Shown here: piece after piece, positions 3,203 to 21,032 of the stretch
Layout: every line of letters begins with the position of its first letter
Position numbering within the stretch: position 1 is the first letter of the stretch
Virus record (IMG/VR): IMGVR_UViG_3300035698_025780
Span: 1-21,032 of that record
Reading direction: 5' to 3' (one strand)
DNA: 21,032 bases
DNA from: a virus
Notes under the pieces: generated by a model
The model's input: the letters and a program-made list of their open reading frames with translations, nothing else
What the model was told of the DNA's origin: nothing
Databases searched by the model: none
Translations under genes and position numbers: made by a program

Positions 3203-4378
3203 ATGAAAGTATTCAATGAATGAGGTAGCCCAATAAAGTCACGATGTAACAACCCAGAACAAGGAGCATTGGACCAGGCCATAAATTTGTCAAGACTTCC
3301 CTTCCTACATAAACACGTTGCGCTTATGCCAGATACACACCAGTGATACTGAATGCCAATATGATGAGTAATCGCTACTGATGGTGTTATCATACCAAAC
3401 GCTGTGTGAGTGGACATCTGATGTTGAATGTGTTCCATGAGAACTACACTTAAATACCTATCTACAGACAATCTTAAGAAAATCTTATGACAAATAAGAA
3501 AATTAGTCCCTGTTTGATTCAACAGCCACAAAGAGCCACAAGATATTTGTGCTATGCCTAAGTGGGCAGATGCTGATATGCTTTGACCTAATTGTGTAGA
3601 ATCAATAGTTGAGGATAATTTCAAGAAAGCTTTAAAATCACTAGGCACCCTTTGAGGTGGAAATCATTTTATAGAAATACAGGAAGGATCTGATTGATAT
3701 ATTTGGATAATGATACATAGTGGTAGTAGAAATCTATGATTACAGGTAGCAAAGTATTATAATAATTTAGCAAAAGAGTTGAATGAGAAACGACATTCAA
3801 ATACCCAAGCCGACCTTGCGTTTCTTCCGGAAAATTCAGAGGAATGAAGGGCTTATGTGTGTGAAATGCAGTATTGTGTAGACTTTGCTTTCGCAAACAG
3901 GAAGCATATGATGATGGTTGTTATGGATATATTTGTAGATATTATGGATGGCTGCGGGTTCGGTGATATTATTAATATTGCACATAATTACGCCAGACTA
4001 GAGAATCATTATAGCAAAAACGTCCGAGTGCATAGGAAAGGGGCTACAAGTGCAAAAGAATGAGAGATTGGTATTATCCCAGGTAGTCAGTGATCTAAAT
4101 CGTATATAGTAAGGTGAAAGTGAGAGAAATCTAGCTTTACCTCATGTAGCCATTGAGCCGGGAGGAGAATGTGAAGAAAGGAAGCACAAAGAGTACTGAA
4201 TGTAGAAAATGAGCAGAAAATACTCAAAGATATGGGTGTTTTGCACTCAATAAGGGGTGTTTGAGACCTAGACGAAGCTCCTAGTGCTTATAAGGACATA
4301 GAATTGGTCATGTCAGAACAGACCAATCTTGTAGAGGTAGTGGTAGAGCTTACACCGCTTGGGGCTGTTAAGGGTTAG
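3203..4378 (+). CDS. rtcB: RtcB-type RNA ligase, 391 aa
   Basis: RtcB joins RNA 2',3'-cyclic-phosphate or 3'-phosphate ends to 5'-OH ends using GTP and Mn2+. The length is typical and all hallmark motifs are present in order: MPDTHQGYGMPIGGVIAT (about 42-59), VGVDIGCGM (metal ligands D71, C74), LGTLGGGNHFIEI (H155), IHSGSRNLG (H172), HNYA (H261), HRKGATSA and IPGSQGS (277-298), SHGAGR with H317 as the expected guanylylated His, APSAYKDI (359-366), and the C-terminal LTPLGAVKG. Many conserved glycines in these motifs are UGA codons, which makes the gene one of the best proofs of UGA=Gly. The start at 3203 follows an AT-rich leader ending in TATC. Phage RtcB probably repairs RNAs, such as tRNAs cut by host anticodon nucleases; this role is inferred. 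A tRNA-like element lies just upstream. Confidence 0.95.
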
Positions 4379-5702: not shown

Positions 5703-5793
5703 ATTTATGTATACACATTAAATAAATCATTTGTCTATATTTATCGTTCCACAAGCAAACTTCAACAGTTTTTATTATTTTACCACATATATT
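5703..5793. promoter_or_regulatory. Divergent intergenic region (promoter candidates)
   Basis: A 91-bp AT-rich gap between the minus-strand gene and the first gene of the morphogenesis module. It is the only divergent junction in the window, so promoters for both directions are expected here. It contains AT-rich TATA-like stretches (for example TTGTCTATATTTAT near 5731), but I cannot place firm -35 and -10 boxes. Confidence 0.4.
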
Positions 5794-6351
5794 ATGAAAG
5801 TTATTAGTAGAAAATTAGAATTACTAGAGCCTGGTATATTCAAGCTACTAGAAACTAGAGAAACAGAAGATTCTGTAGATTGTCTAGAAGGAATTAAAAG
5901 GATGTACGAGTTGCGTGCAAACACAAAATGACTAAAGAACCAACGTATGGGTTTGAAAAGTCAAATAATCGCAGTTGGAGTTAAATTTAAAAAGCTTATC
6001 GAAGAAATGCCAAAGGATTTCGATCTTGGGTTGATGTTTATTGAATTCAGCGAAGCAATCGCTACAGACCTAGACTCAGACACTAGCAAGCTAGACGAAA
6101 AAGAAGGCAACAAAAAAATCATAGCCTTATTCCAAACAAAGGATATTTTACAGAACATGAAGAATCAAAGACTTGCTGTTGCGAAAAAAATCATTGATCA
6201 GGTTTCTGCATACAACAAAAGTATTCAATTACTTAACGAAGCAAACGTTGAACTTAAAATGGAGATAGAAGGTGTTCCAGAGGAAATGGTAGAAGAGGAA
6301 TATTTAGCTGATGTCGTGGACAATAAAGAGGCTGTAGAAAATGCAGGGTAA
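5794..6351 (+). CDS. Probable small terminase subunit (by position), 185 aa
   Basis: First gene of the packaging and head module, one small gene upstream of terL. The protein is largely helical with heptad-like stretches (KNQRLAVAKKIIDQVSAYNKSIQLLNEANVELKMEIEG) and an acidic C terminus (EEMVEEEYLADVVDNKEAVENAG). A helical oligomerisation region with an acidic tail fits small terminases, but I do not see a clear N-terminal helix-turn-helix. One UGA (residue 46) joins two stretches that would otherwise look like separate genes. I start at the ATG at 5794; an upstream TTG at 5731 is possible but lies in the promoter-like gap. Gene order supports TerS; the sequence alone does not prove it. Confidence 0.5.
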
Positions 6352-6577
6352 TAGACTAGCTAATAGACTAGCTTTGCCTAAAAATTGTTGAGATATTAAG
6401 GTGAAGCAACTAAACGTCAACATATCAGTCATATTTAAGCTTACAGACAAATGATATTTGCTTTCTTGTGAATGAGATGGAGAAGTCGACGTATCTTATA
6501 CTATCAGCGGAATGTGCTGTAAAAAGCATAGGGTTGATTGATTTATAAAGGACAATGCGGTATATGAGTGTATTTAA
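6341..6577 (+). CDS. Unknown small protein between terS-like gene and terL, 78 aa
   Basis: Starts 11 bp inside the preceding gene and ends 14 bp inside terL, so all three are probably translated together. It begins MQGNRLANRLALPKNCG, where NRLANRLA comes from a 12-bp tandem repeat. It continues with beta-rich sequence (VNISVIFKLTDKGYLLSCEGDGEVDVSYTISG) and a CCKKH motif near the C terminus, which with C16 and C45 could bind a metal. Four UGA-coded Gly. No family recognised. Confidence 0.55.
6349..6372 (+). repeat. Perfect 12-bp tandem duplication TAATAGACTAGC x2
   Basis: Two exact copies. In the frame of the small-terminase candidate it reads TAA TAG ACT AGC twice, giving double tandem stops. 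In the frame of the overlapping gene it encodes part of NRLANRLA. Confidence 0.9.
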
Positions 6578-9200
6578 GCCATCAATAAAACAGTACAAAG
6601 CGTTGATGTATCTTTGAATAGTCCCATTTTGTGATGCCGTGGACTGAAAACGAGTTCCAAGGAGATGACCAAAATGAATGCACGTATATGACGACACAAT
6701 TACTAGTCTATGATACGGTTGAGCAGCAGGGTGAGGTAAATCTCGCCTTGGTGTCCAACGAATAAGCATGGCCGCTAGAAGATACCCATGAACAAGACGA
6801 TTCATTGCCAGAGAAGAGCTCAAGAGGTTGAAGTGATCAACCTTGCTTACTCTGTTTGAATCTTTTTGAGATGAAGGATTAGTTCGTGATACAGACTACT
6901 CTTACAATAATATTTCCTGAGAAGTAAAAATCTATAATTGAGATAGAGAGACCTCTACGATAATGTTGATTTGATTGGAGCAACTTCCATCAGATCCATT
7001 GTATCTCAGGTTCTGATCTATGGAGTTTACGTGATGATTCGTAGATGAGTCCAATGAGATAGAAGAGATGTGATTTGACGTTATATGAACTCGTATCAGA
7101 TTTAAGTTGGAGGACTTTTGTCCTCATTGTGCCGGAGACCTGACGCCTGATAACTTTGTAAAGGTAATTAGAATACTGAACCCAGATCAGATAGATATTG
7201 ACGATGAGTATATCGAGAAAAACCTATACCTCTGCCCAACGTGCTGATCAGAAACTTGTTGATTGACACCCAAAACATTGAGTACATTCAATCCAGACAA
7301 AGGCTGGGTTTTTCATAAGTTCTACAAACCAAGTAGAGACTGAACGATGCCGGCACATACCGCGTTCATACCTGCACTAGCTACGGATAATCCCTACTTA
7401 CCAAAGGCATATGTACAATCTCTCAAGAAACTGAAAGATAAAGTAATGAAACAAAGGCTTCTGTACGGTAATTTTGATTATGACGCTTCTCCGGGTAGGT
7501 TGTATGAATACGATGAGATACTTGGTATGTTCAACAGAAGATCGGATACATCTATATTGGATGAAAAAATTTTGGAGGATCCACTGTTCCAGAAGGCAGT
7601 TTCTATACATTGAAAGTCACATTTGACTTGATACGAATACAGGATAACTTCCGATCCAGCTAGGCATGGTCGTGACTGGGCTATAATAATGGTGTGGAAT
7701 AATTTTAGTATTGAAGAAATTATAATTTACTTGAAGTCTAACAACACCGACCTTGAGAGTGAAATAGTAAAGATACGGGATAGGTTACATATTTGATCAA
7801 GAGAAACTCTTGTTGATGAGGATGGTCTGTGATGAGGAATAAAAGATACGCTAAGGTGTAGGTGATTTATAAATAGATCGCAGGCCATACAACCCAAGAA
7901 GGCCAAGAAGAATAAGCTTGAGAGGCTTAATTACGATAGCCTAAAGACGCAGTGTTATTTTGAACTAGCAAATTATATAGAGAAGATTTCCATAGACATG
8001 AACAACCTAAAATTAACAGTAAAGTGAGGTGACTCTCAGGAAAATATTTCTATTACTCACGCCCTGATAAAAGAAAGGATAATAGAAGAGTTAGATGCTA
8101 TGGTTGAGGTAGACATAGATAAAGATTGACCAAAAAAGATAATTTCTAAAAAAGAATTGAAGCAAAAACTATGAAGATCGCCAGATTTAGGAGATTGTTT
8201 CGTCTGATCGACCATGGTGTTAACAATAAAATGATATAAAAGAATAGATGAAATTGAAATATGAGATATGGTGGTTACTCCATATTGAAATAGAAAAGTA
8301 ATAGACACAATAAAGAAGAAATCAAAATCTCTATTTTTACTTAATGAAACTCTTTTATGAACCTGAAAGCACAAAATAATAACTAAAGAATGAACCAAAA
8401 GGCTTGACTCTATTTCAATGAAAGATAATATAATTATATTTAATTTATTAGATATAATAAGATGGAGATGGAGGCGTCTATTCAACATAAATGAAAGAAA
8501 TATTGGCTTCATGGGAAATATTACTATTACAAGTTCAGATGAAAAAGGAAGGCATTACATAGACAAATACGGGAAGAAAAAAAATGACAAATACCCGAAG
8601 GACACGTCGTGCACCATATTGACAGGAATGTTTCAAATAATTCTATTAGCAATTTGATTGTTATGGAAAAGACAGAGCATATGAAACTTCATATGAAACT
8701 TCATCTCAGCGATAAAGATCGGGTATTTAGGAATAATAAACACCTTGAGAAAATCAGACCTATGAGTAAAAAACGGCACTCATCTCCTGCCTGAAAAGAA
8801 CGGCACAAAGAGCACTATAAGTCGTCTATTGGGTCAGCTAAAGAATATTTCAAAAAATGTAAAATGTGTTGAGGAGAATATAAAACAACAAGAACAAATT
8901 GATCTTGAGTCTGCTGAAATAAGTGTTACCAAAAGCTCCGCTATAAAGAATGACGCTGGTTCGAGCTTAGGGTATGTATTCAGTGTTGATGAAAATTTTC
9001 GGTTAAAAAAAATGCAAAAACCAAGTGTTGTTCAAGGTCTTGTTGAGATAAATTTAGAAGATTACGCTAGTGTGTATGATTTAGAAATTGAGTGAGATCA
9101 TGTATATTACGCCAATGGCATATTGGTTTCAAATTGTATCATGATGAAAATGTATCGAGCCGTAAAGGGTAGCACTCGTGTATTTACATACTGATGATAA
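6564..9200 (+). CDS. terL: Large terminase subunit (TerL) precursor with intein, 878 aa
   Basis: The packaging motor ATPase-nuclease. The Walker A loop is GGAAGGGKS (residues 52-60). The Walker B region is FTGGFVDESNEI, followed by the Arg-rich GTRIRFKLEDF segment. The RLLYGNFDYD motif is typical of TerL. The RNase H-like nuclease carries its acidic residues in SDPARHGRDWAI, VDEDGLGGGIKDTL and SPDLGD. A 313-residue intein interrupts the gene at SPDLGD|C. After splicing, the exteins (544 + 21 aa) give a 565-residue protein reading SPDLGDCIMMKMYRAV, a normal TerL C terminus. Two CxxC pairs (CPHC, CPTC) between ATPase and nuclease suggest an inserted zinc site. About 30 of 45 extein glycines are UGA, including most of the Walker A glycines. 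It overlaps the upstream gene by 14 bp; the stop is TAA after two UGA-coded Gly. Confidence 0.93.
8462..9070 (+). CDS. HNH homing endonuclease nested out of frame inside the intein, 202 aa
   Basis: Lies wholly within the terL/intein coding sequence in the -1 (+2) frame, starting at ATG 8462 (or the in-frame ATG 8468) and ending at TAG 9068-9070. The upstream TAA at 8441 closes this frame. N-terminal part: KKYWLHGKYYYYKFRGKRKALHRQI. HNH core: IPEGHVVHHIDRNVSNNSISNLIVMEKTEHMKLH, with the HH, NN and EH..LH residues. Then two zinc clusters: CKMCGG...VCGNKC and CIQCGGKF...KCCSRSCGDKF. About 12 of 16 Gly are UGA, including those in the zinc knuckles. It most likely promotes homing of the intein by cutting intein-free terL. 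Expression could be by internal initiation or by a -1 frameshift near 8444-8461; no Shine-Dalgarno sequence is visible. Confidence 0.88.
8678..8701 (+). repeat. 12-bp tandem duplication in the dual-coding region
   Basis: CATATGAAACTT occurs twice in tandem. It encodes HMKLHMKL in the HNH frame and part of IGNFIGNF in the intein frame. The length is a multiple of three, so both frames survived the duplication. Confidence 0.85.
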
Positions 9201-9265: not shown

Positions 9266-10618
9266 ATGACAGATACAACTGAGAATAAAATAGAACATAC
9301 TGACGAGCAATTAGTCAGTAAAAGACTAGCAAAAGACGCTATGATGTCACAGTCTCTCCAGGCGAAGTGATATACATACATGGGGAATAAATTTTCTGAT
9401 TGTGGTAAATACGAAATAAGTCTTAATACGATGTATCAGATACAGCGTAACAATACAGAAGCACAATCTGCAAAAGATCTCATAGTCAAGATGGTATGAA
9501 AGCTAGGAATGCGTTTCACTAAAAAAGATAAGATTATTGAGGATTCGAGTTGGGCTAATAAGATCCAAACACTATTCACAGATCCTGTGACTAAATCATA
9601 CAAGACGTTCAGAGATAAATACTACACCAATAGTTTCTGTAGTGGTAATGTTTCTTGCTATTTCGCGACAATGTGAGATGGATCTAAAAGAGTGCAAATA
9701 CTTGATAGTAGAGGGGTCGCTAAAGACTCTGACGCCTTCTGAAATATGCAGAAGTTTTACTATAACCAAAAAGAATATCCACTTAGTGATGTACATTTCC
9801 AGATAACAAGATACGATCCAAACAACTCTAGTTTCGGTATGTCAATGTACGAGAGCGTTGTTTATACTGCCATGTCTGACTTTGAGGCAAGTAAGAGAAA
9901 TTACTACTTTTTCAGGAACAACGCAATGCCAAACGTTATCTTGACTATGGATGACGACATAGAAAACCCAGAAGAAGTGAATGCAGCTATAAAAAGATTC
10001 GAGGAAAGATACCAGTGAAGTGAAAAGTCACATTGAGTGATGGCTACTTGAGGTATTAAGGAGGTTAGAACTATAGACTTCACGAATAAAGATCTAGAAC
10101 TTCTTGAACTAAATAAATTTAGTATAAAAAAGATGGGTATACTTTTTGGGTTTGATCCTAGATTCTTGTCGTACAGAGATGGTGAGAATGGTTCTCATTC
10201 TGAATATGAAAAGATGGCACATCAGAGCGATAAATCAATGGTTGATTATGCTGATGTTTTGGAGGAATTTATGTTTCAGATAACAAAAATAATCTATCCA
10301 GGATTCCCATATGATACAATACAATTGAAGAACGATCAATTTCTCGATCCAACAATAAGACAAGAGTTGATATTGAAACAGCTTGAAAAGTGAACTATCA
10401 CGTTTATTCAAGCCATTGCAGAATTAGGGTATCCAACAGATAAATTACCTGAGTATTTGAATACATATATGGTGAACATCCAAAATGACTCTATAGAAAA
10501 CATTTTGAACAAATCAGTGGCGTCTATTGCTCAAACAAAGAAGACAACTAAAAATATATGAGTCGCACCAAAGGCAGTTGATACCTGATCAAAAGCAAAA
10601 GACAAAGAAGACGAATAA
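9266..10618 (+). CDS. Phage portal protein, 450 aa
   Basis: The dodecameric portal forms the DNA channel at the capsid vertex and docks TerL. Position directly after terL, length, and the central motif YDPNNSSFGMSMYESVVYTAM...SKRNYYFFRNNAMPNVILTM (about 190-233) match HK97/SPP1-type portals, where FG.S..E and RN.A.P..IL are typical. A later region GFDPRFLSYRDGENGSHSEYEKM resembles the portal clip/stem to wing segment. The C terminus is charged and Lys-rich. Ten of about 24 Gly are UGA-coded. The ATG at 9266 follows a T-rich leader without a Shine-Dalgarno sequence; the stop is TAA. Confidence 0.85.
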
Positions 10619-10750: not shown

Positions 10751-12061
10751 ATGCTACAAGACACTAAGGATATGTCTAAGAAAGAATTCAAGCAGTATAT
10801 AAACGAGAATGGATTTTTCGTTAATTTTAATACAGATAAAATAAATAGAGAAGAGGTTAATTCATTCCTCGAAGATTGAGTTAAGGTCGACAAGGAAATA
10901 CCGAAGGGAGAAAACATACTTATATTCAAAGGTGTCGCTTCTCAGAATTATGGATTAGGAGAGAAATCCAGAAATTGATATAAGATAGACCAGAAGGGTC
11001 GGTTGTTTGAAAACTATCTTAAAAACCCAATCATATTGCTACAACATAATCATGAATATGGTGGAATTTGAAACGCTGCAAAGCTCCGGGTAGATAGAAA
11101 GGAAGGAAACCTAAATGTGTTGTTTTACGTAGACACAAATACACTAGACGATAAGACTAAATATCAAATTGAAAATGGGTTTATATCAGCTGTTAGTACA
11201 TCGCATTTGTCTCACGAGAACATGATAGAGGACAATAAGACAGGAGAAAGAATGACACGAGAAGAAGCTAGAGAAAAACTAGATTGGTTCGAGTTGTTTG
11301 AGGCAATGGTTTGATCAAGCGATACATATACATTGGTAGTGACTAAGGCAGAAATGATAGAGAATAGCATGGTTACTATTTGAAGTAATGAGGGTGCTAT
11401 CGTTGCACACAATAGTGTATGAAACTATTTCACAAACAAATATTCTGAGAAAATTATTTCAGAAATTTTATCAAATAAATTAAACGACATGACAGCCGCA
11501 GAGATTAAAGCATTCATGGATAAAGCAAATCTAACTAAAGATCAATCTAATAAAATTACTGCTAAATTAAATGAACTGACAGATGAAGAAAAGACACCTG
11601 AAAAAGTAGAAGAAGTAGTTGAGGAAGAGAAAAAAGAGGACGAGGTAGATGAAAAAAAAGAGGAAGAAAAAAAAGAAGATCCAGAAACTTCCGAGGAAGG
11701 TGAAAAACCAGAATGATCTGAAAAAGATCAGGAAACCCCAAAGGAAGATAAAGATATTGACGAAAAGTCAAAAGAAAACAAGGTAGTAACCAAGGAAGTA
11801 AAAAAGAATGAATTTAAGACCTACAAGAACGAAGTAGATTCTGAGATCGCTGGTTTGAAAAAAACCGTAGCAAATCATGAAGAAAATGCCCAGCTTTTGA
11901 CTGATGGTCTTACGGCAGCAATTAATGCCATCTCTACACTACAATGACAATTAAAAAACATCGTAGTAGGCGGCGTCTCTAATTTTGTCGCTGAGACTGA
12001 GGAAAAGAAAGCAGCTGCTAAAACGCAACTTACAAACGTATTAGAAAAAATCGCAGGCTAA
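10751..12061 (+). CDS. Prohead serine protease fused to acidic scaffold-like domain, 436 aa
   Basis: Residues about 55-215 resemble the HK97-type prohead maturation protease: IFKGVASQNYGLG, then NPIILLQHNHEYGGIGNAAKL with catalytic His near 99, then NGFISAVSTSH with the candidate Ser at 146, and SMVTIGSNEGA. Residues from about 247 form a separate helical region that becomes extremely Glu/Lys-rich (about 270-350) and ends in coiled coil and a small hydrophobic tail. That layout fits a scaffold that is destroyed during maturation. An in-frame Met at 247 (ATG 11489) could start a free scaffold, as known in other phages with nested scaffold genes. Eight UGA-coded Gly. It sits right before the capsid gene, as expected. 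Confidence 0.8.
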
Positions 12062-12086: not shown

Positions 12087-13235
12087 ATGCTCAATAACGA
12101 AGCTCTAATCAATCTCGTAGGAGAATTGAAAACCAATACAGGTGTTGAAAAAGACATCGTAGTAAAACAAATGGAACAAGCAAAAGAAAAGTATTCAAAG
12201 AATGCAAATGAAGTAGAACATACCAGTAATGTTGGATATGGTAAAGAACTCGTTCCTGTTGATGTTCTTACAGGAGAAGTTATCCAGATGATACCTCAAA
12301 CAACTTCATTTATGAATGAATTGCCAGGTTTCCAAGGTTCTGATATGGGTATTTCTGAGAAGAGACCTATCGTTGGTGAAATTGGTTTCGCTGTAGGTAA
12401 TCCAGAACGAACAACTGGTGCTGGAATCATATCTCAAGGTAATAGGAAACTTCCTACTGCTGATATAACAATCAATCAAGTACCAATGATCGCATCTGTT
12501 GATATTTCAAAGAGATTGACCAACTATTCTATCATGGACGTTGAGCAATACGTAAAAGAACAAGCAGCTAAGATCTACTCTAGAACAATGGAGTCTATGG
12601 TTCTTAATTGTGATACTACCACCACTGCCACAGGTAATGTAAATCTTGATGACGCACTTCCAGTTTCTACATTCGCCGATGGAGCAAATGATCACAGACT
12701 TCTACTTGACAATGGTTTGAGAAAAACATTCCTAAGTGGAACTGTTGATATTGATTGGAAAGACGTTGGTGCATTGGATCGAAGTGGCTTTATCGAAGTG
12801 AGAGCTTTGATGGGAGATTATTCTTATGATTTGTCAGAAATACTTCTCATTATGAATGGTGGAACCTACAATAAAGCATTGACTATTTCTGAGTTTAAAA
12901 AAGCTAACGAAAATGGTAGAAGTTCTACTATCTATACTGGTGCCATTACAAATATAGCTGGAGTAGATCTATTTGTTGCTAGAGATTACCCAAAAACAGA
13001 AGCTGATGGAAAAGTTTCCGTTACTGCTGCAAGCAATACTAAGGGTGGTTTCTTGTATTTCAGAAGATCTGCTGTACAATTTGGATTCGGTCAAGCAATC
13101 GAATTGGATTCTGTTAAAATCCCAGGTAAGGGTTACTCTGTAATCATGACTATGGAATTTGGTTTTGCTATTGTCAACAAAAAGGCAGGAGCTACAGATC
13201 CACGAGTTGTAGGAGGAATTAACGCTACATTATAA
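12087..13235 (+). CDS. Major capsid protein, HK97 fold, 382 aa
   Basis: The shell subunit. It lies immediately after the protease and scaffold gene. The pattern ELVPVDVLTGEVIQMIPQ...FMNELPG (N-terminal arm and E-loop area), then DITINQVPMIASVDISKRL, then DVEQYVKEQAAKIYSRTMESMVLNC (spine helix), then EILLIMNGGTYNKAL and a Gly-rich A-domain end, matches HK97-type capsid proteins in size and order. It has no UGA codon at all: all of about 37 glycines use GGN, unlike its neighbours. The leader is TTTATTTATTATTTATATCACA with no Shine-Dalgarno sequence. A hairpin follows the stop, so high-level expression as a discrete transcript is likely. Confidence 0.88.
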   Translation: MLNNEALINLVGELKTNTGVEKDIVVKQMEQAKEKYSKNANEVEHTSNVGYGKELVPVDVLTGEVIQMIPQTTSFMNELPGFQGSDMGISEKRPIVGEIGFAVGNPERTTGAGIISQGNRKLPTADITINQVPMIASVDISKRLTNYSIMDVEQYVKEQAAKIYSRTMESMVLNCDTTTTATGNVNLDDALPVSTFADGANDHRLLLDNGLRKTFLSGTVDIDWKDVGALDRSGFIEVRALMGDYSYDLSEILLIMNGGTYNKALTISEFKKANENGRSSTIYTGAITNIAGVDLFVARDYPKTEADGKVSVTAASNTKGGFLYFRRSAVQFGFGQAIELDSVKIPGKGYSVIMTMEFGFAIVNKKAGATDPRVVGGINATL

Positions 13236-13241
13236 CATATA

Positions 13242-13283
13242 TCTACTCACCATCGTCTGGTGGTGAGTAGACTTACTTTATTT
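13242..13283 (+). terminator. Hairpin after the capsid gene (probable terminator)
   Basis: An 11-bp stem TCTACTCACCA/TGGTGAGTAGA (13242-13252 with 13261-13271), 8-nt loop, then CTTACTTTATTT. It begins 6 bp after the capsid stop. The T tract is interrupted, so partial termination or 3'-end stabilisation of the capsid mRNA is likely. Confidence 0.65.
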
Positions 13284-13296
13284 ATAAATAAAACCT

Positions 13297-13956
13297 ATGG
13301 CTAATACATATTACAAATATACTGGTCAAGAACACACTCTTGTTAGAAAAGTTGAAGGAGGAAGAAAATATAGGGTTGATGAAGGAGGAATTATAGATTC
13401 AGAATTGGATTATAGCTACATGAAAAGCAATAGATTTGTTGCTTGTACTAAAAAAGGAAATCTAATAAACCCATTTGAGATTAAAGAATCTCCAGAAAGC
13501 AAAGAGATGAGATCTCCCCCTGTAAATGTAGTACCTACTCCTGCTAAGACAGAAGAAGCTATAGTGCCTCCAGTTGATGCTATTGTTAAGGTTCCAGCTG
13601 ATAATAGACCAGTTGACGCCCCTACTACACCTCCAGTTGATGAAAAACTAGCTGATGAAGTGACAAGTGCCGGAGAGCCTATTGTATCTCCAGAAGCCGG
13701 AGTTATTGCTCCAACGAATGTCGGCGAGCTAGACAACAACGACACAGCTTGAGTTGTTGATGTTACTACAGGTAAAAAAGACGGAGCAACTGATGCAGAA
13801 ATCAATTCTCTAATGGGAGACCTAGTAGAAGAAAAACCAATGACATATGTACAAGCAAAGAAATATCTTGATGACAATGAGGTGGCGTATGTTAAAAGTT
13901 CACCGCTAGAAACGTTGTTAGGGATCATAAAAACCCACAAAGCAGAACAAAAGTAA
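13297..13956 (+). CDS. Pro/Val-rich protein downstream of capsid, 219 aa
   Basis: The N-terminal about 70 residues (MANTYYKYTGQEHTLVRKVEGGRKYRV...FVACTKKGNLINPFEI) look like a small beta domain. A long Pro/Val/Thr/Ala linker follows (about 75-160, several PPVD-type repeats), then a C-terminal helical segment KPMTYVQAKKYLDDNEVAYVKSSPLETLLGIIKTHKAEQ. Position right after the capsid gene suggests a head decoration, head fibre or head-completion protein. Helices like the last one occur in proteins that dock to connectors. Function is inferred from position only. One UGA (residue 152); without it the protein would lose its last 68 residues. A TATAAATA box lies 6 bp before the ATG. Confidence 0.65.
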
Positions 13957-13976
13957 TTTACTCCTAAAATTGAAAG

Positions 13977-14555
13977 ATGTATGCAACAGTCGACGATGTA
14001 CTAGCAAAGTTGTGAGTAACAACTGCCTCTGATGCAAGAAGAGCTCAAATTCAAAAATATTTGGATCGGACAGCACCAGAGATAACATCTATAATCGGCG
14101 AGGTAAATATATCAGAAAAGACAGAGAAAATTATGTTCTGTGATATTGGTGATTGATGCCCAACAGAGATTTATCTACAAAACATTCAAGTCTCTGAAAT
14201 AAAAAAGATAAACTGAGTAGATTATACTGGTGTTGTTAATACGGATTATGCGATAACAAAACCACAAGATAGAAGAATCGTTATGAACGATCTGTACGAT
14301 TATATTGAATCAACCGACCTTGGATATTTCATGATAACATACATATCATGATATGTAAAAACCGAATTACCACAGGATATTATATTCGCACACACACTGT
14401 TGGTAGAGGAGGAAATGAGCAAGGAGAGTTTACAACAAATCTCTAATTACAAGATGTGACCAAGAACAATTAAGTACGCTTGAGGGTGAGAGGCAACATC
14501 TAGCATGAAGTGATTTAAATCGTATCTTAATAAGTATAGGATTTTAACTATCTAG
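13977..14555 (+). CDS. Head-tail connector / adaptor protein (gp6-like), 192 aa
   Basis: MYATVDDVLAKLGVTTASDARRAQIQKYLDRTAPEITSIIG shows the N-terminal helical pattern of small phage connector proteins (HK97 gp6 / SPP1 gp15 type), which bind below the portal ring. The middle is beta-rich and the C-terminal third is helical (DIIFAHTLLVEEEMSKESLQQ). It contains nine UGA-coded Gly. The order after capsid and before the neck genes supports the call. Stop TAG, 8 bp before the next ATG. The longer-than-usual middle makes the exact family uncertain. Confidence 0.65.
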
Positions 14556-14563
14556 CGATCGTG

Positions 14564-14929
14564 ATGCTTTATGATAAAACATGTAACATAAAGATAACCA
14601 CGACGGAAGATAAACGTGGCACAGATGTGCCAGTTGAAACTATGCTATATGAAGGTCTTGAGTGTGATTACTATATGGCCCCCAGGGGTAATGTAGTGAA
14701 TTATCTTGAAAGTATGTCCGTAAGGGAGCAAGATAAAGACAGGTTAGATTGTGTTATACCATGATATGCATACGATCCTGAGAAGAAGATAAAACAAGGG
14801 TATATCTTTGAATTATTCTGACCTCATGTATCTGAGGATGGTAAATATATGGTGGATCAGGTAGATTATTACGATATGCCAAATGGAAGACTAGAAAATA
14901 TTTACGTTCGTCTTAATCAAATACTATAA
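14564..14929 (+). CDS. Probable head closure / stopper protein, 121 aa
   Basis: The protein is mainly beta (YDKTCNIKITTTEDKRGTDVPVETMLYEGLECDYYM ... QGYIFELFGPHVSEDGKYMVDQVDYYDMPNGRLENIYVRLNQIL). The size, the beta character, a final strand like that of head-closure proteins, and its place between the connector and the HK97 gp10-like gene fit a stopper of the SPP1 gp16/HK97 type. The GTG at 14561 just before is an alternative start; I prefer ATG 14564. The stop shares its last A with the next ATG (TAATG), giving translational coupling. Two UGA-coded Gly. Confidence 0.55.
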
Positions 14930-15288
14930 TGAAATTCTCATTCAGCGTAGCAGATACCATGAGAAAGACCAAAAATAAATTGGTCATTGATCTGGAAAAA
15001 TGAATGGGAGCATTAGAAGTAATGGTTAATAGACTTACCCCAGAGGATACAGGTAGAATGCTTGCATGAAATATAAGAGACCCAGTAAAAGTAGAATGAA
15101 GTGATGTAGTCTGAAGGATGCACAATAGTACGCCATATTGATTGAAGGTGGAGGAATGACTATGAGTAATAGCTTCATATCAGAAGCCAAAATGAAATAT
15201 GTGATGGTATATCTGAGACTGAGTACATACTTATGAAAGGGCATTAAAAGCGATGAGACCGATAATACTTCAATTCTTAAAAAGATAA
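14929..15288 (+). CDS. HK97 gp10-like neck / head-tail protein, 119 aa
   Basis: The pattern RKTKNKLVIDLEKGMGALEVMVNRLTPEDTGRMLAGNIRD followed by STPYGLKVEEG and a C-terminal helix YERALKAMRPIILQFLKR is typical of the HK97 gp10 family, where a long N-terminal helix, a TP.DTG.L motif and a P(Y/H)...VE.G motif recur. It is thought to help join head and tail. There are 13 UGA-coded Gly in 119 residues, one of the densest in the window. Start is coupled to the preceding stop by TAATG. Confidence 0.75.
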
Positions 15289-15289
15289 G

Positions 15290-15715
15290 ATGCACATTAT
15301 TCTGAATGGAAATGATATTGTGGAGACACTCAAGACCATACCGGCTTTGGTAGAACTACTACCATGATGAATAAAAAATGAAAAAGAATTGAGGGAATCG
15401 CCGCTCAGACCATATATGTTCATTAAGAAGCAGGAAATGCCATCGTCAGCTAGCAATTCATTTAATAGAGAGGCGTTTATTACTATTAGCATAGTTTGAA
15501 CCAAAGACACTGTTGAAGATGAGTTGTCAGTTATATTTGAAATACTAGAAGATTCTATTCTCTGAGATATTGACTGATGTATCCCCATTACCTCACGAGG
15601 TAGCAAAGAAGTTAGTGGGATCAGACAAGGATACGCATCAGAACCAACCAGGGATGAGAAGCAGAATCTAATATTATATAGAGATTACGTTTTTACCTAT
15701 ATAACCCAAACATAA
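15290..15715 (+). CDS. Probable tail terminator protein, 141 aa
   Basis: The alpha/beta layout is MHIILNGNDIVETLKTI...ELLPGGI, PYMFIKKQEMPS, NREAFITISIVGTKDTVEDELSVIFEILED, then an end strand LYRDYVFTYITQT. A helix facing an antiparallel sheet with a C-terminal R.YVF.Y strand is seen in lambda gpU / SPP1 gp17 tail terminators. Position just before the tail tube genes supports this. Five UGA-coded Gly. TAATG coupling to the next gene. Confidence 0.6.
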
Positions 15716-15909
15716 TGTCAGAAGACAAAAAAACAAATGAGCCTCAAAAGAAAGTAGAAACCATCACACCAAAAAAGAAAAAAAATAAGACTATGGTCGC
15801 ACTCAAACAACTAAACTTCAAAACAGGAGTAGTAGAGGCGTGAGTTAAGTTCAACATACCTGTGGAGGTTGATTTACCAAAAACCTGGGCTACACTTTTA
15901 ACTTCTTAA
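15715..15909 (+). CDS. Small Lys-rich protein before the tail tube gene, 64 aa
   Basis: A disordered, highly basic N-terminal half (MSEDKKTNEPQKKVETITPK, then KKKNK) leads into a short beta-like segment MVALKQLNFKTGVVEAGVKFNIPVEVDLPKTWATLLTS. The start is coupled to the previous stop (TAATG). The last part resembles small phage proteins that end in a beta strand and a Trp-containing turn, but no family is recognised. One UGA-coded Gly. Located 12 bp before the tail tube gene; a tail-assembly accessory is a guess. Confidence 0.5.
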
Positions 15910-15921
15910 TAATCTTACACG

Positions 15922-16800
15922 ATGAGCACATTTACCAAAAACAACGTATCCTACAAGGCCGCTAAGGTTAGAATCTCCTCTTATGATCCAGAAGGGATTT
16001 TGGCAACTAATATGCCATCAAGAACTTTGACGACTGAGAACGATAATGTAGATGCAGTTATAGCATACGTTCAAGCAAACTGGGTCTTCAATAGAATGGC
16101 CGGTTTCAAAAATGCTAAAATTTCAGAAGCTTTTGAGAACGAAGTTACTGATGAAGTGGATGATTGTGATATTCAAGAGCGACAGAAGACTTCTGATCTT
16201 ATCCCTTCTTTTGAAGGAGATTGGTTGACTACACTTGATCTTGATGCACTAGAAATTCTCACTGGAAATGGATACTCTTCTGTTCCTGGTACTCCTGTTG
16301 TTGCATCAACTCAAGTACGATTAAGTGGTGCACTTGCGTTCAACAGAAATTCAAGACTCCAATACCAGCATCACGATAGTAATGTTAATATCGTTGTTCC
16401 TACTGTAGCTGCTTTGGTTGGTTCAATCGACACTACTTTGGTAGAGGGAACAGATTTCAGACTAGAAGATAATGGTTTTGGAGAATTCGGATTGGTCATC
16501 TACGCTGGTTGAGCTATCTCAACTGTGGCACAAGATTTCACTCTGACATACAACTATACACCAATCTCTGCTGAATATTCTGGTTACGATATTGGAACAA
16601 TGATTCAACCTTACTTTATTGTTGAGATTGAAACATGTCCTGATGAGAACGCTAAGATTGATAAGTATTACATCGTTAAGGCCAATCTATCTGGAGCACT
16701 CGACACTAACTTTATCTCTACTGGAGAGGTACCACTTTCTGGGATTACTCTACAAGGAGCGAAGGGAGGTCAGTTGTTGAAAGAAAGAACAAGAATATAG
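15922..16800 (+). CDS. Major tail (tube) protein, 292 aa
   Basis: A beta-rich protein with an N-terminal KVRISSYDPEGILATNMPSRTLTTENDN and a long Thr/Ser/Val-rich body. It lies between the tail terminator and the chaperone-TMP genes, as expected for the tube subunit of a long non-contractile or contractile tail. Size and high GGN glycine use fit an abundant structural protein: only one UGA (residue 197) among about 22 glycines. That UGA joins two stretches that would otherwise look like separate genes. A strong terminator follows the TAG stop. No sheath gene is seen, so a siphovirus tail is more likely. Confidence 0.75.
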
Positions 16801-16857: not shown

Positions 16858-16874
16858 AAAATTTGATACTAGGT

Positions 16875-17438
16875 ATGTCAAATCAATGGTACGATTACCC
16901 CTTCGCTTGAGATTGGGAATTAAAAATACCAATAACGGTAAAGTTAGAAGGGAAGGAAGAAAAATTTCTTGTTGGTGTTAAATATAAACAGGCCACCATA
17001 GAGGAGACAATAAAATTTCTACAGAAAGACATAGACCATACAAAATGGATATTTGATTTTATGAAAGAATTTTGAAACTTAGAAGAAATTTCTGAAAATA
17101 TATTAAAGATGAAATGAGATTCTGTCCAGAAAATATATAAAACAATAATGGATACGAGATTCAGATGAGTTTTCGAGAGAAAGTGAGGCAAAAGAGGTGA
17201 TTCTTGAGGGAGGAGTGTACTTTATAGCACCCAGCTATCAGAACTAGCAGGAAAGATTTCCATCCACCCAGCAGAACTACAAAGAACGTATACTCTTGAA
17301 CAATTCAACCGATTCATAAGATGAATAAACTTTTGAGTGAACGAATGAAGCGAAGCATGACAACACGCAAACGATAAAATCCTATTCAATCAGACGTATA
17401 GCGACGATGAGTTATTGGATTTATTTAATAAGAAATAA
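16875..17438 (+). CDS. Probable tail assembly chaperone, 187 aa
   Basis: Position between tail tube and tape measure genes is where tail assembly chaperones (gpG/gpGT type) lie. The N-terminal half has the pattern DWELKIPITVKLEGKEEKFLVGVKYKQATIEETIKFLQKDI. After a Gly/Arg-rich linker, the second half (about 120-187) is helical, SVLYSTQLSELAGKISIHPAELQRTYTLEQFNRFIRGINFG... This could correspond to both halves of a G-T fusion in one frame; I see no need for a frameshift. Eleven UGA-coded Gly. The stop is TAA, 8 bp before the tape measure ATG. Confidence 0.55.
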
Positions 17439-17446
17439 CCACATAG

Positions 17447-20400
17447 ATGACTGATATTCTTGAGATAGAGGTAGTAGCGGATGTGAGCCAGATGGAGACT
17501 ACACTACAATGAATGTACTCTGACGCCGTACAAGTCGCTAAGAAAACCGAAAAGGCTCTTACGTTTACTCCAGAATTGGACACTAAAATAATAAGAGACC
17601 AACTTGAAAAAGTCAAATTAGTAGCCAGAGACACATGAAAGGTTATTGATTGAGCTATGAAGGAAAGATTCATCCAACTTAATATTGATGCAGACAGAGT
17701 AAAGAAAGAGATCGCAAATTTAGAGTCTCTGAAAAAAAGATTAACAACTCCTGCTGAACTTAGGATCGATGCTAATATTTTGGCCACTCAGAAAAAAATT
17801 AGACAGCTTGAGATTCAGAAGAAGCAGATCGCACAACAGGCAAAGATAGTTATCACAGCAGAAACCGCAGTAGCGAACTCAAGAATAAAGGAGTTGGTTT
17901 TGGCAAAAAGAGAAGCAGCAAAGAACGAGAAGGCTACCATTAGTATAAATATCCAGGAAGCTAGAGCTAAATTAGCTGCCTTCAAGGCAAGTAAGGCTGA
18001 TGCCACCCTATCGAAGACGGTGGTTATTTCTGCCGAAACGACAAAGGCAAAAGCCAAGCTTAGTGCCCTACAGATACAGAAGAATAAGATAGAGAAACCA
18101 TCAACAACCAAGATAGATTTGGATGTCAAAAATTTCAAAAGTAGTCTCAAGGAAATAAATAAATGAATATTAAACATAAGAAATACTTGAAATGATGTTA
18201 CAAGCAGGTTAAAGACTAGCTTTTCAGGACTAAGTAACTCTTTGAAAACATGACTATTGTCTACCTTTTGAGCTTTTAGTATTGCTTGAGGGATTGCCGC
18301 TGGGGTAAGAGCACTTGGTAGGGGTATGGCGGAAGCAAAGGATATTGCGGTCTCATTCGAGAGTGCTTTTGTTGGTGTTCAAAAAACAGTAGAAGCTACG
18401 GATAGGCAATTCGCTCAATTCAACGACTCTCTGCATGAGCTAACCTTAGAAATACCACTTACATACGAAGAGCTTGCAAAGATTGCCGAGCTTGGTGGAC
18501 AAATGGGAGTTCCAATCGAAGCGCTTGAAGAGTTTACTAAAGTTATTGCCCAGATGGGTGTTACTACGAACCTGACCACAGAAGAAGCGGCTTTGGCATT
18601 CTCTAGAATTGCAAATGTAGTTGGTTTGCCACTATCACAGGTATCCAAACTAGGAAGTGCAGTAGTTGCCCTTGGAAACAACTTTGCCGCACAGGAGTCT
18701 GAGATAACAAATTTCACACAAAGGATCGCAGGTGCAGGTAATGTTGCCGGACTTACGGTAGGAGATATGACCGGGATAGCTACTGCCCTTACTTCTGTTG
18801 GAATACAGGCAGAAAAAGGAGGAAGTGCGGTTAATAAGGCACTATTATTGATGAGCTCCGCCGTAACGGCAGGAGGCGTAGACCTTCAATGATTTGCTGA
18901 TACTGCTTGATTGTCCGCAGAGAAATTCACACAACTCCGAGAGAAAGACGCAGGAGAAGCTTTCAATCTATTTGTTGAATGATTGTGAAAAGCTTGAAAG
19001 AGAGCGGATAGTATAATCATAAACCTACTTTGAAATAATGTTAGGACGAAGGAAACTTTTCTTAACCTATCTTCCGCATGAAATCTTTTGAGGAAAACAA
19101 TAACTCTTGGAAACGCAGAATTCGAGAAAGGGAATGCTATACAGAAAGAAGCATCTTTGAGATACGGGACTACAGAAAGTAAGTTCATTAAGTTGAATAA
19201 TGAGATTAGGATCCAAAAGGAACAAATGGGGAAAGATTTGATCCCATTGTATATCACAATAAACAAAGTCATCCTTACGATATACAAATGAGTAAGTACA
19301 TTGGCTGGGCAGTTTCGTAATTTAAGCACCGCGTGACTAGTAGTTGTAAAGGCATTGTGAGCATGATGACTTATCGGGGTCGCAACTTTGATAAATCCTA
19401 TTTTATGAGGAGTAGTGGCTAGTATACTAGCCGTAGTTATGGCAGCCACTCTTTTGAAGGCTGCATTCGCATGACCACTCACAGAGACAGAAAAATTGGA
19501 AGAAAATATGAAGTCATTAAATGAAGAAATGGATTGACTATGAGAAAAAATGACTAATTTAGATAAGAGCTTGTCTAGATGAGCAATTAGTATGAACGAA
19601 TACGAAAAACAGTCTGCAAAAATGAAAGATGAGTATGTAAGATTATCTTTGGCCATAGATAAAACAGCAGAGTCTCTAGCTAAAGATAGAAAAATACAAG
19701 AGGCTGTGAATGAATTAAATATAAAAACAACAGCAGAACTAGGAAGATATAAGAAAAAATTACAAGAGGTGGAAAGTATAGAAAAAAAACATAGAGATAG
19801 ACTTAAGGAATTGGCGGATGAGAATAAAAAAAACTGAGGCGCCGTTAGGTTCAACACAGAGAGTAATGCAGCATATAAAAAGGAAGTTTCTGGCATGACT
19901 AGCGAAATTCAAACTGCAAAAAGTGAGCTAGCATGAATGAGAACGTCTATTGATGAAACTACACAGGCTACATCATCATGAATAGCAGCGTTTAGAATAG
20001 CCAGCTTAACTACGGACAATTACGCAGAAGCACTGGCTTTTGTGGATTCACTTAGAATAGACACATCACACACAGTAGAACAATTAGCAGTAGAGACGGA
20101 AGCCGCAAGGAAAGCAAAAGCAGAGCATATAGCAAAAGCAGAAGCTGCCGCATTAGCTACCGTTGGAATTAAAGAAGCTGCATTAGCAATTGCAGAGGCG
20201 ACAAGAGACGCCTCGCCAGACAGCCCTATTGCTAAGTTTTTTGGTATTGGTAGGCAAGGCAAATGAGTATCCGCCGCGGTAGCCGAACTTAAAGATGCAG
20301 AATTAAGCCTTGATAATATAAGAAAAGACGCTGCGGCAATAGAAATCGTTAAGTTTAACTCAGTGGAGGACGCTGCCGCGGAGCTAGGCATATTTTTTGA

Positions 20401-21032
20401 GAAAAACAAAAACTTCAATGCAGAGAATTTTACTACAATGACTCAATTAACAAAGGCATTATGAGAAGTAAACAATCTAACAAAAGATGCTGTAATTTGA
20501 TCAGAACAGAGAAATAAGTTACTAGAGTACACAAAAGACCTACAGGGAAGAATAAACTCACTAGATGAAGATGGGAATAGCGCAGCTAAGGCAAGGAATG
20601 GCGCAGCTAAGGCTACTGTAGATATTACCAAAACACAAATTGAATTAGCTAAGGCGAAGGCACAGTTAGAGATAGCCTGAATAGAGGACTCTGAAGCTAG
20701 CGAAATATCCAAAGCACAAAGCATATTGGACGTGAATACTAGGATGGAAGAAGAAATAAGGGAGTTGCAAGGAGACACACATAAGACATCTATCGAGAAT
20801 GCGAAGGATGTTATTAAGGCCTGGGAAGAACAAAAGGATAAATGAGTAGAGGCATACAACGATATTGGAGACTCAATAGAGGACGTAGTAAAAGACATGG
20901 GCGACTTGAGGCAGAAGATCAAAGAATCAAACGAGGAGATAGCACAAATAGACTCCGATGCTATCGAAGAGATACAAAAGAGATACGCTGATATAAACGA
21001 GGAAATAGTAAACAATACCCAAGATATTGACG
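17447..21032 (+). CDS. Tape measure protein (partial at window end), >=1195 aa
   Basis: Sets tail length and is ejected with DNA. N-terminal residues about 75-240 are coiled coil with about 30-residue repeats (for example TPAELRIDANILATQKKIRQ, VVISAETTKAKAKLSALQIQ). The conserved tape measure domain follows from about 270: a hydrophobic Gly/Ala helix, MAEAKDIAVSFESAFVGVQK, YEELAKIAELGGQMGVPIEA, and GLTVGDMTGIATALTSVGIQ. A second hydrophobic region lies near 630-675 (VVVKALGAGGLIGVATLINP...ILAVVMAATLLKA), then long charged coiled coil to the window edge. UGA-coded Gly occur throughout. The frame is still open at 21032, so the C terminus is missing. Confidence 0.9.

Follow-up and report, generated by a model that had tools for sequence, protein, structure and literature searches.

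The major capsid gene of the virus record IMGVR_UViG_3300035698_025780 (positions 1 to 21,032; this whole stretch of 21,032 bases is called the window) contains no UGA, the codon that encodes about half of the glycines in most other genes of the window, and the tail tube gene contains only one. The depletion recurs in related phages, has been kept up against synonymous turnover, co-varies with other codons and has a parallel in bacteria that use the same genetic code (code 25, UGA = glycine). It very probably reflects translational selection on synonymous codons against UGA in a phage of code-25 bacteria. The bias appears to be linked to gene expression, being strongest in genes that are expected or known to be highly expressed, both in phage and host.

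The coding frames of the window lie mostly on one strand and stay open only if TGA is taken as a sense codon. It encodes glycine: RtcB matches PF01139 (E 1.7e-109) with 22 in-frame TGA codons translated as glycine, and 58-61% of the invariant glycine codons of the portal and large terminase subunit (terL) genes are TGA. The window is a fragment of a siphophage, encoding a terminase with an intein, a portal protein, a protease/scaffold, the capsid protein, connectors, the tube and a tape measure protein. Genes were called from open frames, and the virus records are partial. No tRNA genes were found in the 21,032-base window.

TGA counts within the window

The two genes concerned are the following:
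12087..13235, + strand: major capsid protein, HK97-like (PHROG 283, major head protein, E 1.7e-6; PF05065 sub-threshold, E 4.6e-4)
15922..16800, + strand: tail tube protein (fold matches of a low-confidence model; location just upstream of the tape measure gene)

The naming of the capsid is also backed by related phages matching PHROG 10. Its structure model is useless (mean predicted local distance difference test score, pLDDT, of 36), so the identity rests on the profile matches and these relatives. The tail tube protein has no Pfam or PHROG match. Its AlphaFold model, built from five sequences, has a pLDDT of 60, and the top Foldseek matches are solved structures of tail tube proteins (E 7.6e-5, probability 1.00, template modeling score only 0.31).

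All window counts are in-frame TGA codons among the glycine codons under code 25. The capsid gene has 0/37 (22 GGT, 14 GGA and one GGC), the tube gene 1/22 and the portal gene 10/24, in agreement with the approximate counts of a preliminary description of this DNA. That description had put the terL exteins at about 30/45; the exact figure is 32/48. For the neck gene (14929-15288) the 13 it gave is the glycine total, of which 11 are TGA. Two more low genes were overlooked, namely 13297-13956 (1/14) and 5731-6351 (1/9). Compared with all other genes of the window, the deficit has a Fisher p of 3.8e-10 for the capsid (1e-8 after Bonferroni correction for 26 genes) and of 7.5e-5 for the tube (0.002 after the same correction), while the two overlooked genes, each tested alone, show no significant deficit after correction. 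The window genes other than these four have 198 TGA among 382 glycine codons, without significant heterogeneity (chi2 24.7, df 17, p = 0.10), and the window is thus closer to a two-class split than to a smooth gradient. The low TGA content of capsid and tube is confirmed as a real observation.

An explanation by mutational or compositional patchiness, or by conserved glycine codons frozen as GGN, has a practically negligible probability. The G+C content is even over the region and all genes concerned share one strand. In low-copy genes the TGA share is 0.64 in the 5' half and 0.67 in the 3' half, which rejects position along the gene as the cause. Glycine content has no predictive value either, as the neck gene has 11% glycine, 85% of it UGA. 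Frozen glycines are rejected by a comparison within genes, where the TGA share is the same at invariant and variable glycine columns. No points in favor of patchiness or frozen sites were found.

The other genes of the window that are considered here are:
5731..6351, + strand: gene of unknown function upstream of terL
6555..8195, + strand: terminase large subunit, N-extein
8196..9134, + strand: intein in terL (12 TGA/26 Gly; first residue Cys, last residues Ser-Asn, followed by the Cys of the C-extein)
9135..9200, + strand: terminase C-extein
9266..10618, + strand: portal protein (PF04860, E 1.9e-17), used as low-copy comparator
10751..12061, + strand: head maturation protease/scaffold (weak PHROG 11321 match; 8 TGA/26 Gly)
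13297..13956, + strand: gene of unknown function right after the capsid gene
13977..14555, + strand: head-tail adaptor (PHROG 442; 8 TGA/13 Gly)
14929..15288, + strand: neck/tail completion protein (PHROG 5, E 0.006)
16863..17438, + strand: probable tail assembly gene (position only; 10 TGA/17 Gly)
17447..21031, + strand: tape measure protein, continuing past the window end (length and position; 33 TGA/78 Gly)

PHROG 11321 also matches the protease of locus L157, which is itself supported by Pfam. A second frame of 202 aa, encoding an HNH endonuclease (PF13392, E 2e-14), is nested in the terL intein at 8462-9070 in a different reading frame. The intein frame stays open across this stretch, which represents either two genes that overlap or the insertion of a homing endonuclease in a frame other than that of the intein.

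Related phages and synonymous turnover

Related phages were found by capsid searches of viral contigs, and the same genes were counted in each. The capsid TGA share is lower than that of the low-copy virion genes in 15/15 code-25 phages, which belong to two capsid families. The eight capsids of family 1, which includes the window, have 0/37, 0/37, 0/38, 2/36, 5/39, 6/33, 13/37 and 15/35 (pooled Cochran-Mantel-Haenszel odds ratio, OR, 0.079, p 4e-56), and the low-copy virion genes have TGA shares of 0.51-0.77, above their own capsid in 8/8 phages. The tube of this family is lower than the low-copy genes in 7/7 phages (OR 0.157) and the protease/scaffold in 8/8 (pooled OR 0.41, p 5e-9). The protease/scaffold represents a graded middle step that is visible only with the related phages pooled. 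Family 2 came to light in prophages of two host genomes and was then found in viral contigs as well. Its capsid lies below the low-copy virion genes in 7/7 phages (OR 0.22, p 2e-23). The capsid profiles of the two families do not match each other significantly, and the families are therefore counted as separate at the sequence level. It should be noted that these phages are related by descent and the p-values overstate their independence, although the pattern is shared by two capsid families and by the hosts.

The preliminary description had itself raised the objection of ancestry, i.e. that the capsid and tube genes are recent arrivals from a phage with the standard code and have had no time to accumulate UGA. 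The farther capsid relatives L052 and L154 speak for it, as their capsid has no TGA and TGA is used as a stop in several of their frames; both look standard-coded. Run as a test, however, the objection fails. Within the code-25 clade, the synonymous turnover of the capsid gene equals that of neighboring genes, and yet no UGA was gained. The capsids of the window and of its relative L049 are 75% identical. At 15 of their 35 shared glycine sites the codons differ within GGN, with no TGA in either phage, while TGA use in terL differs at 18/41 shared glycine sites. The four-fold sites are equally worn (46% identical in the capsid and 45% in terL), and a capsid that is nonetheless free of TGA indicates selection, not ancestry. 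The capsid tree has a single clade in which genes with 0, 2, 5, 6, 13 and 15 TGA are intermixed, and L052 and L154 stand apart from it. Moreover, foreign-looking low-TGA genes of a complete code-25 host chromosome (G001, below) are mostly poorly adapted (about 0.45-0.65), whereas the phage capsid and tube are the best adapted genes of their own genome. Recent acquisition is thus rejected for this family by the synonymous turnover and the capsid tree, and we consider ancestry very unlikely.

A further frame of L049 (2456-2788) has 110 codons, of which 47 are TGA and none is GGN, corresponding to 43% glycine, all of it UGA. It encodes either a repetitive glycine-rich protein or is a repeat without a coding role.

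Code-25 bacteria, codon choice and decoding of UGA

Host genomes were selected by searching DNA for the motif GHVDHGKT encoded with UGA glycine codons, and belong to Gracilibacteria and Absconditabacteria. The comparison with host ribosomal protein genes that the preliminary description had suggested reveals the same avoidance in code-25 bacteria: ribosomal protein genes lie below the background in 23/28 genomes (p 5.5e-5). The mean TGA share rises from EF-Tu (0.20) over ribosomal proteins (0.44) to other genes (0.63), with EF-Tu the lowest of the three classes in 21/21 genomes. The complete code-25 chromosome G001 (1,343,103 bases; loci L094-L114 and L170-L217) has a genome-wide TGA share of 0.55, but EF-Tu has 0/40, EF-Ts 0/20 and the top 5% of codon-adapted genes have a share of 0.31. 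A pilin-like protein (0/25) and an S-layer-like protein (1/91), both named from reading the sequence alone, are likewise low. The low-TGA genes of G001 are of two kinds, well adapted and poorly adapted, which probably represent abundant and foreign genes, respectively.

The bias extends beyond glycine. Over 55 non-glycine codons, the shift between capsid plus tube and the other genes tracks the shift of host ribosomal proteins (rho 0.74 in family 1), and the same correlation is found for the family 2 capsid (rho 0.56). The four window genes with the lowest TGA share take ranks 1-4 in host-like non-glycine codon choice, with 5731-6351 third and 13297-13956 fourth. As these two genes bear the same signature, we predict that their proteins are abundant. 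5731-6351 is conserved in L049 (4008-4511), where the homologue has 2 TGA/10 Gly, and shows few UGA and host-like codons. In both families UGA lies about 3 residual standard deviations under the general codon-bias line, which leaves room for a UGA-specific cost. We tentatively suggest that UGA may bear its own penalty beyond ordinary codon bias, either by slow pairing or by misreading by tRNA-Trp or tRNA-Cys.

Such an extra deficit would also fit a selection for accuracy instead of speed, in which UGA is misread as tryptophan or cysteine and the errors are not tolerated in abundant assembling proteins. Both capsid and tube proteins have to assemble into lattices that errors could poison, and a few non-glycine peptides at UGA were found in a code-25 bacterium (Hanke et al., PMC4032931). 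Within genes, however, invariant glycines are no more UGA-averse than variable ones (OR 0.94, p 0.63, and OR 1.13, p 0.41). The lack of a signal at invariant sites favors efficiency over accuracy, and we regard accuracy as an unlikely explanation.

Two other causes considered in the preliminary description are not supported. Competition with a release factor, i.e. residual RF2 terminating at UGA at the cost of product, would scale per UGA with expression. RF2 looks absent from the listed TGA-reading genomes, however: above-cutoff prfB was present in 67/99 genomes of the sampled class but in none of the listed genomes with at least two in-frame TGA in their release-factor match, and the window showed no RF2 gene. 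Termination at UGA is thus not the likely cost, and this explanation is highly improbable. A timing effect, in which the translation of late genes would be scheduled by their UGA content, has been proposed for other recoded phages (reported in PMC10746230). Here, side-by-side genes of one late cluster range from 0 to 85% UGA, and as the probable host already reads UGA as glycine, there is nothing to switch; we hold this regulatory role to be extremely doubtful.

The slow or scarce decoding by tRNA-Gly(UCA) that the preliminary description had proposed fits the same avoidance in host EF-Tu and ribosomal proteins. G001 has one tRNA(UCA) gene with G1:C72, C2:G71, G3:C70 and U73, the identity elements used to call a glycine tRNA (PMC8629427). 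ARAGORN found one tRNA-Gly(UCC) gene besides it but no tRNA-Gly(GCC) in this genome, and a single tRNA may therefore serve all four GGN codons. On the phage side, the partial records of the window and of most related phages show no suppressor tRNA. L165 has a tRNA-Gly(UCC) gene, not UCA, at 758-834 near an integrase-sized frame (possibly an attachment site), and L049 a tRNA-Trp(CCA) gene at 3266-3338.

Selection for translational efficiency would then act as follows. In an A+T-rich genome, mutation pressure would raise UGA above all other glycine codons in genes under weak selection. Being decoded less efficiently than GGA or GGU, it would be purged from the genes with the largest protein output, reaching the major capsid first and then the tail tube in the window's phage family. 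The same purging would affect EF-Tu and, more weakly, the ribosomal proteins of the code-25 host. We infer that the cost lies in elongation at UGA by a single, weakly pairing and hence slow tRNA-Gly(UCA), which would also compete with near-cognate tRNA-Trp and tRNA-Cys.

Several observations weigh against this explanation. The trend with expected copy number, as originally claimed, stands for the capsid in both families and for the tube and protease/scaffold of the window's family, but it does not for the tube of family 2 (PF18906), which shows no depletion (OR 0.85, not significant). The capsid of the L138 prophage lies barely under its own base (0.72 vs 0.74), and within family 2 phages the TGA share does not correlate with non-glycine bias (rho -0.08). 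No ribosomal deficit was found in 5/28 hosts (G003, G004, G021, G206 and G215). Furthermore, the copy numbers are those expected from general siphophage biology, the host comparison uses code-25 bacteria at large, and the host tRNA gene numbers come from one genome.

The code of the window is probably table 25 plus CGA/CGG as tryptophan. In alignments with related phages, CGA and CGG of the window and of family 2 loci pair mostly with tryptophan, not arginine. Among the family 2 loci compared (L138, L160, L162 and L163), this holds for 57 of about 66 cells in L160 and 20/20 in L138. Tryptophan is also the commonest partner of CGA/CGG in the window (e.g. CGA at 12408, 12780 and 18938; CGG at 11000, 11087 and 7776). 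In alignments of host ribosomal proteins and EF-Tu, CGA aligns with tryptophan and other non-arginine residues in G002, G003, G004, G005, G015, G020, G021 and G206, whereas it is arginine in 29/35 cases in G023. As CGA/CGG = tryptophan has been predicted for Absconditabacteria (PMC8629427), the codon use points to an Absconditabacteria-type host and gives phage-side support to the predicted reassignment. These codons are avoided in the family 2 capsid (OR 0.08, p 6e-4) but not in capsid plus tube of family 1 (OR 0.99), and a general rule that reassigned codons are avoided is thus unsupported in family 1.

Meaning and comparison with known systems

UGA-glycine is frequent and yet apparently not fully competent, even without RF2, and its use gives a direct reading of the quality of a reassigned codon. 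If UGA does bear a penalty of its own, code-25 organisms would carry a permanent cost, visible as the near-exclusion of UGA from EF-Tu-class and capsid genes. The depletion argues against the earlier suggestion that code-25 hosts favor UGA for its efficiency, and in these phages it also speaks against a role of UGA in timing late genes. As a tool, the UGA share of a gene together with its non-glycine codon adaptation may predict expression level in code-25 genomes and phages, dividing the genes without UGA into those of abundant proteins, which are well adapted, and recent foreign ones, which are poorly adapted. A literature search whose coverage did not extend to Borges 2022 and Campbell 2013 brought up no previous description of this depletion in bacteria or phages with code 25.

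The principle is already known from recoded eukaryotes. In Blastocrithidia (PMC12153298) and the ciliate Oligohymenophorea sp. PL0344 (PMC10553269), reassigned stops are likewise common genome-wide but depleted in highly expressed genes, and a decoding cost has been proposed. These two are eukaryotes with other reassignments, and UAA is also still a stop codon in Blastocrithidia, whereas here the codon is UGA, read as glycine by bacteria that lack RF2 and by their phages, and the depletion is most extreme in the major capsid gene. Classical codon bias is similar in that it involves many amino acids and host-preferred codons and is strongest in EF-Tu, ribosomal and capsid genes; unlike in classical bias, the disfavored codon here is a former stop and the majority glycine codon, and its deficit exceeds the general trend.

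Among phages, Lak, crAss-like and similar phages also use in-frame stops as sense codons (PMC10746230). Their hosts have the standard code, the phage itself often supplies the suppressor tRNAs, and the codon is reported to serve as a control in late genes. Here the probable host has the same code as the phage, no tRNA gene turned up in the window, and capsid and tube are depleted in the codon. No late-gene enrichment of the reassigned stop is seen, as the other late genes are at the general level. The preliminary description was thus correct that the direction is opposite to that of recoded phages enriching the stop in late genes, but these infect standard-code hosts and represent a different situation. 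The closest comparison is with the code-25 phages of Absconditabacteria and Gracilibacteria, which have the same code and probably the same host group. Many of them carry in-frame TGA throughout, and it has been proposed that TGA might be favored as an efficient codon (PMC10746230). In the available part of that paper, code use is given per genome with no analysis per gene, and our data point in the opposite direction for the most expressed genes.

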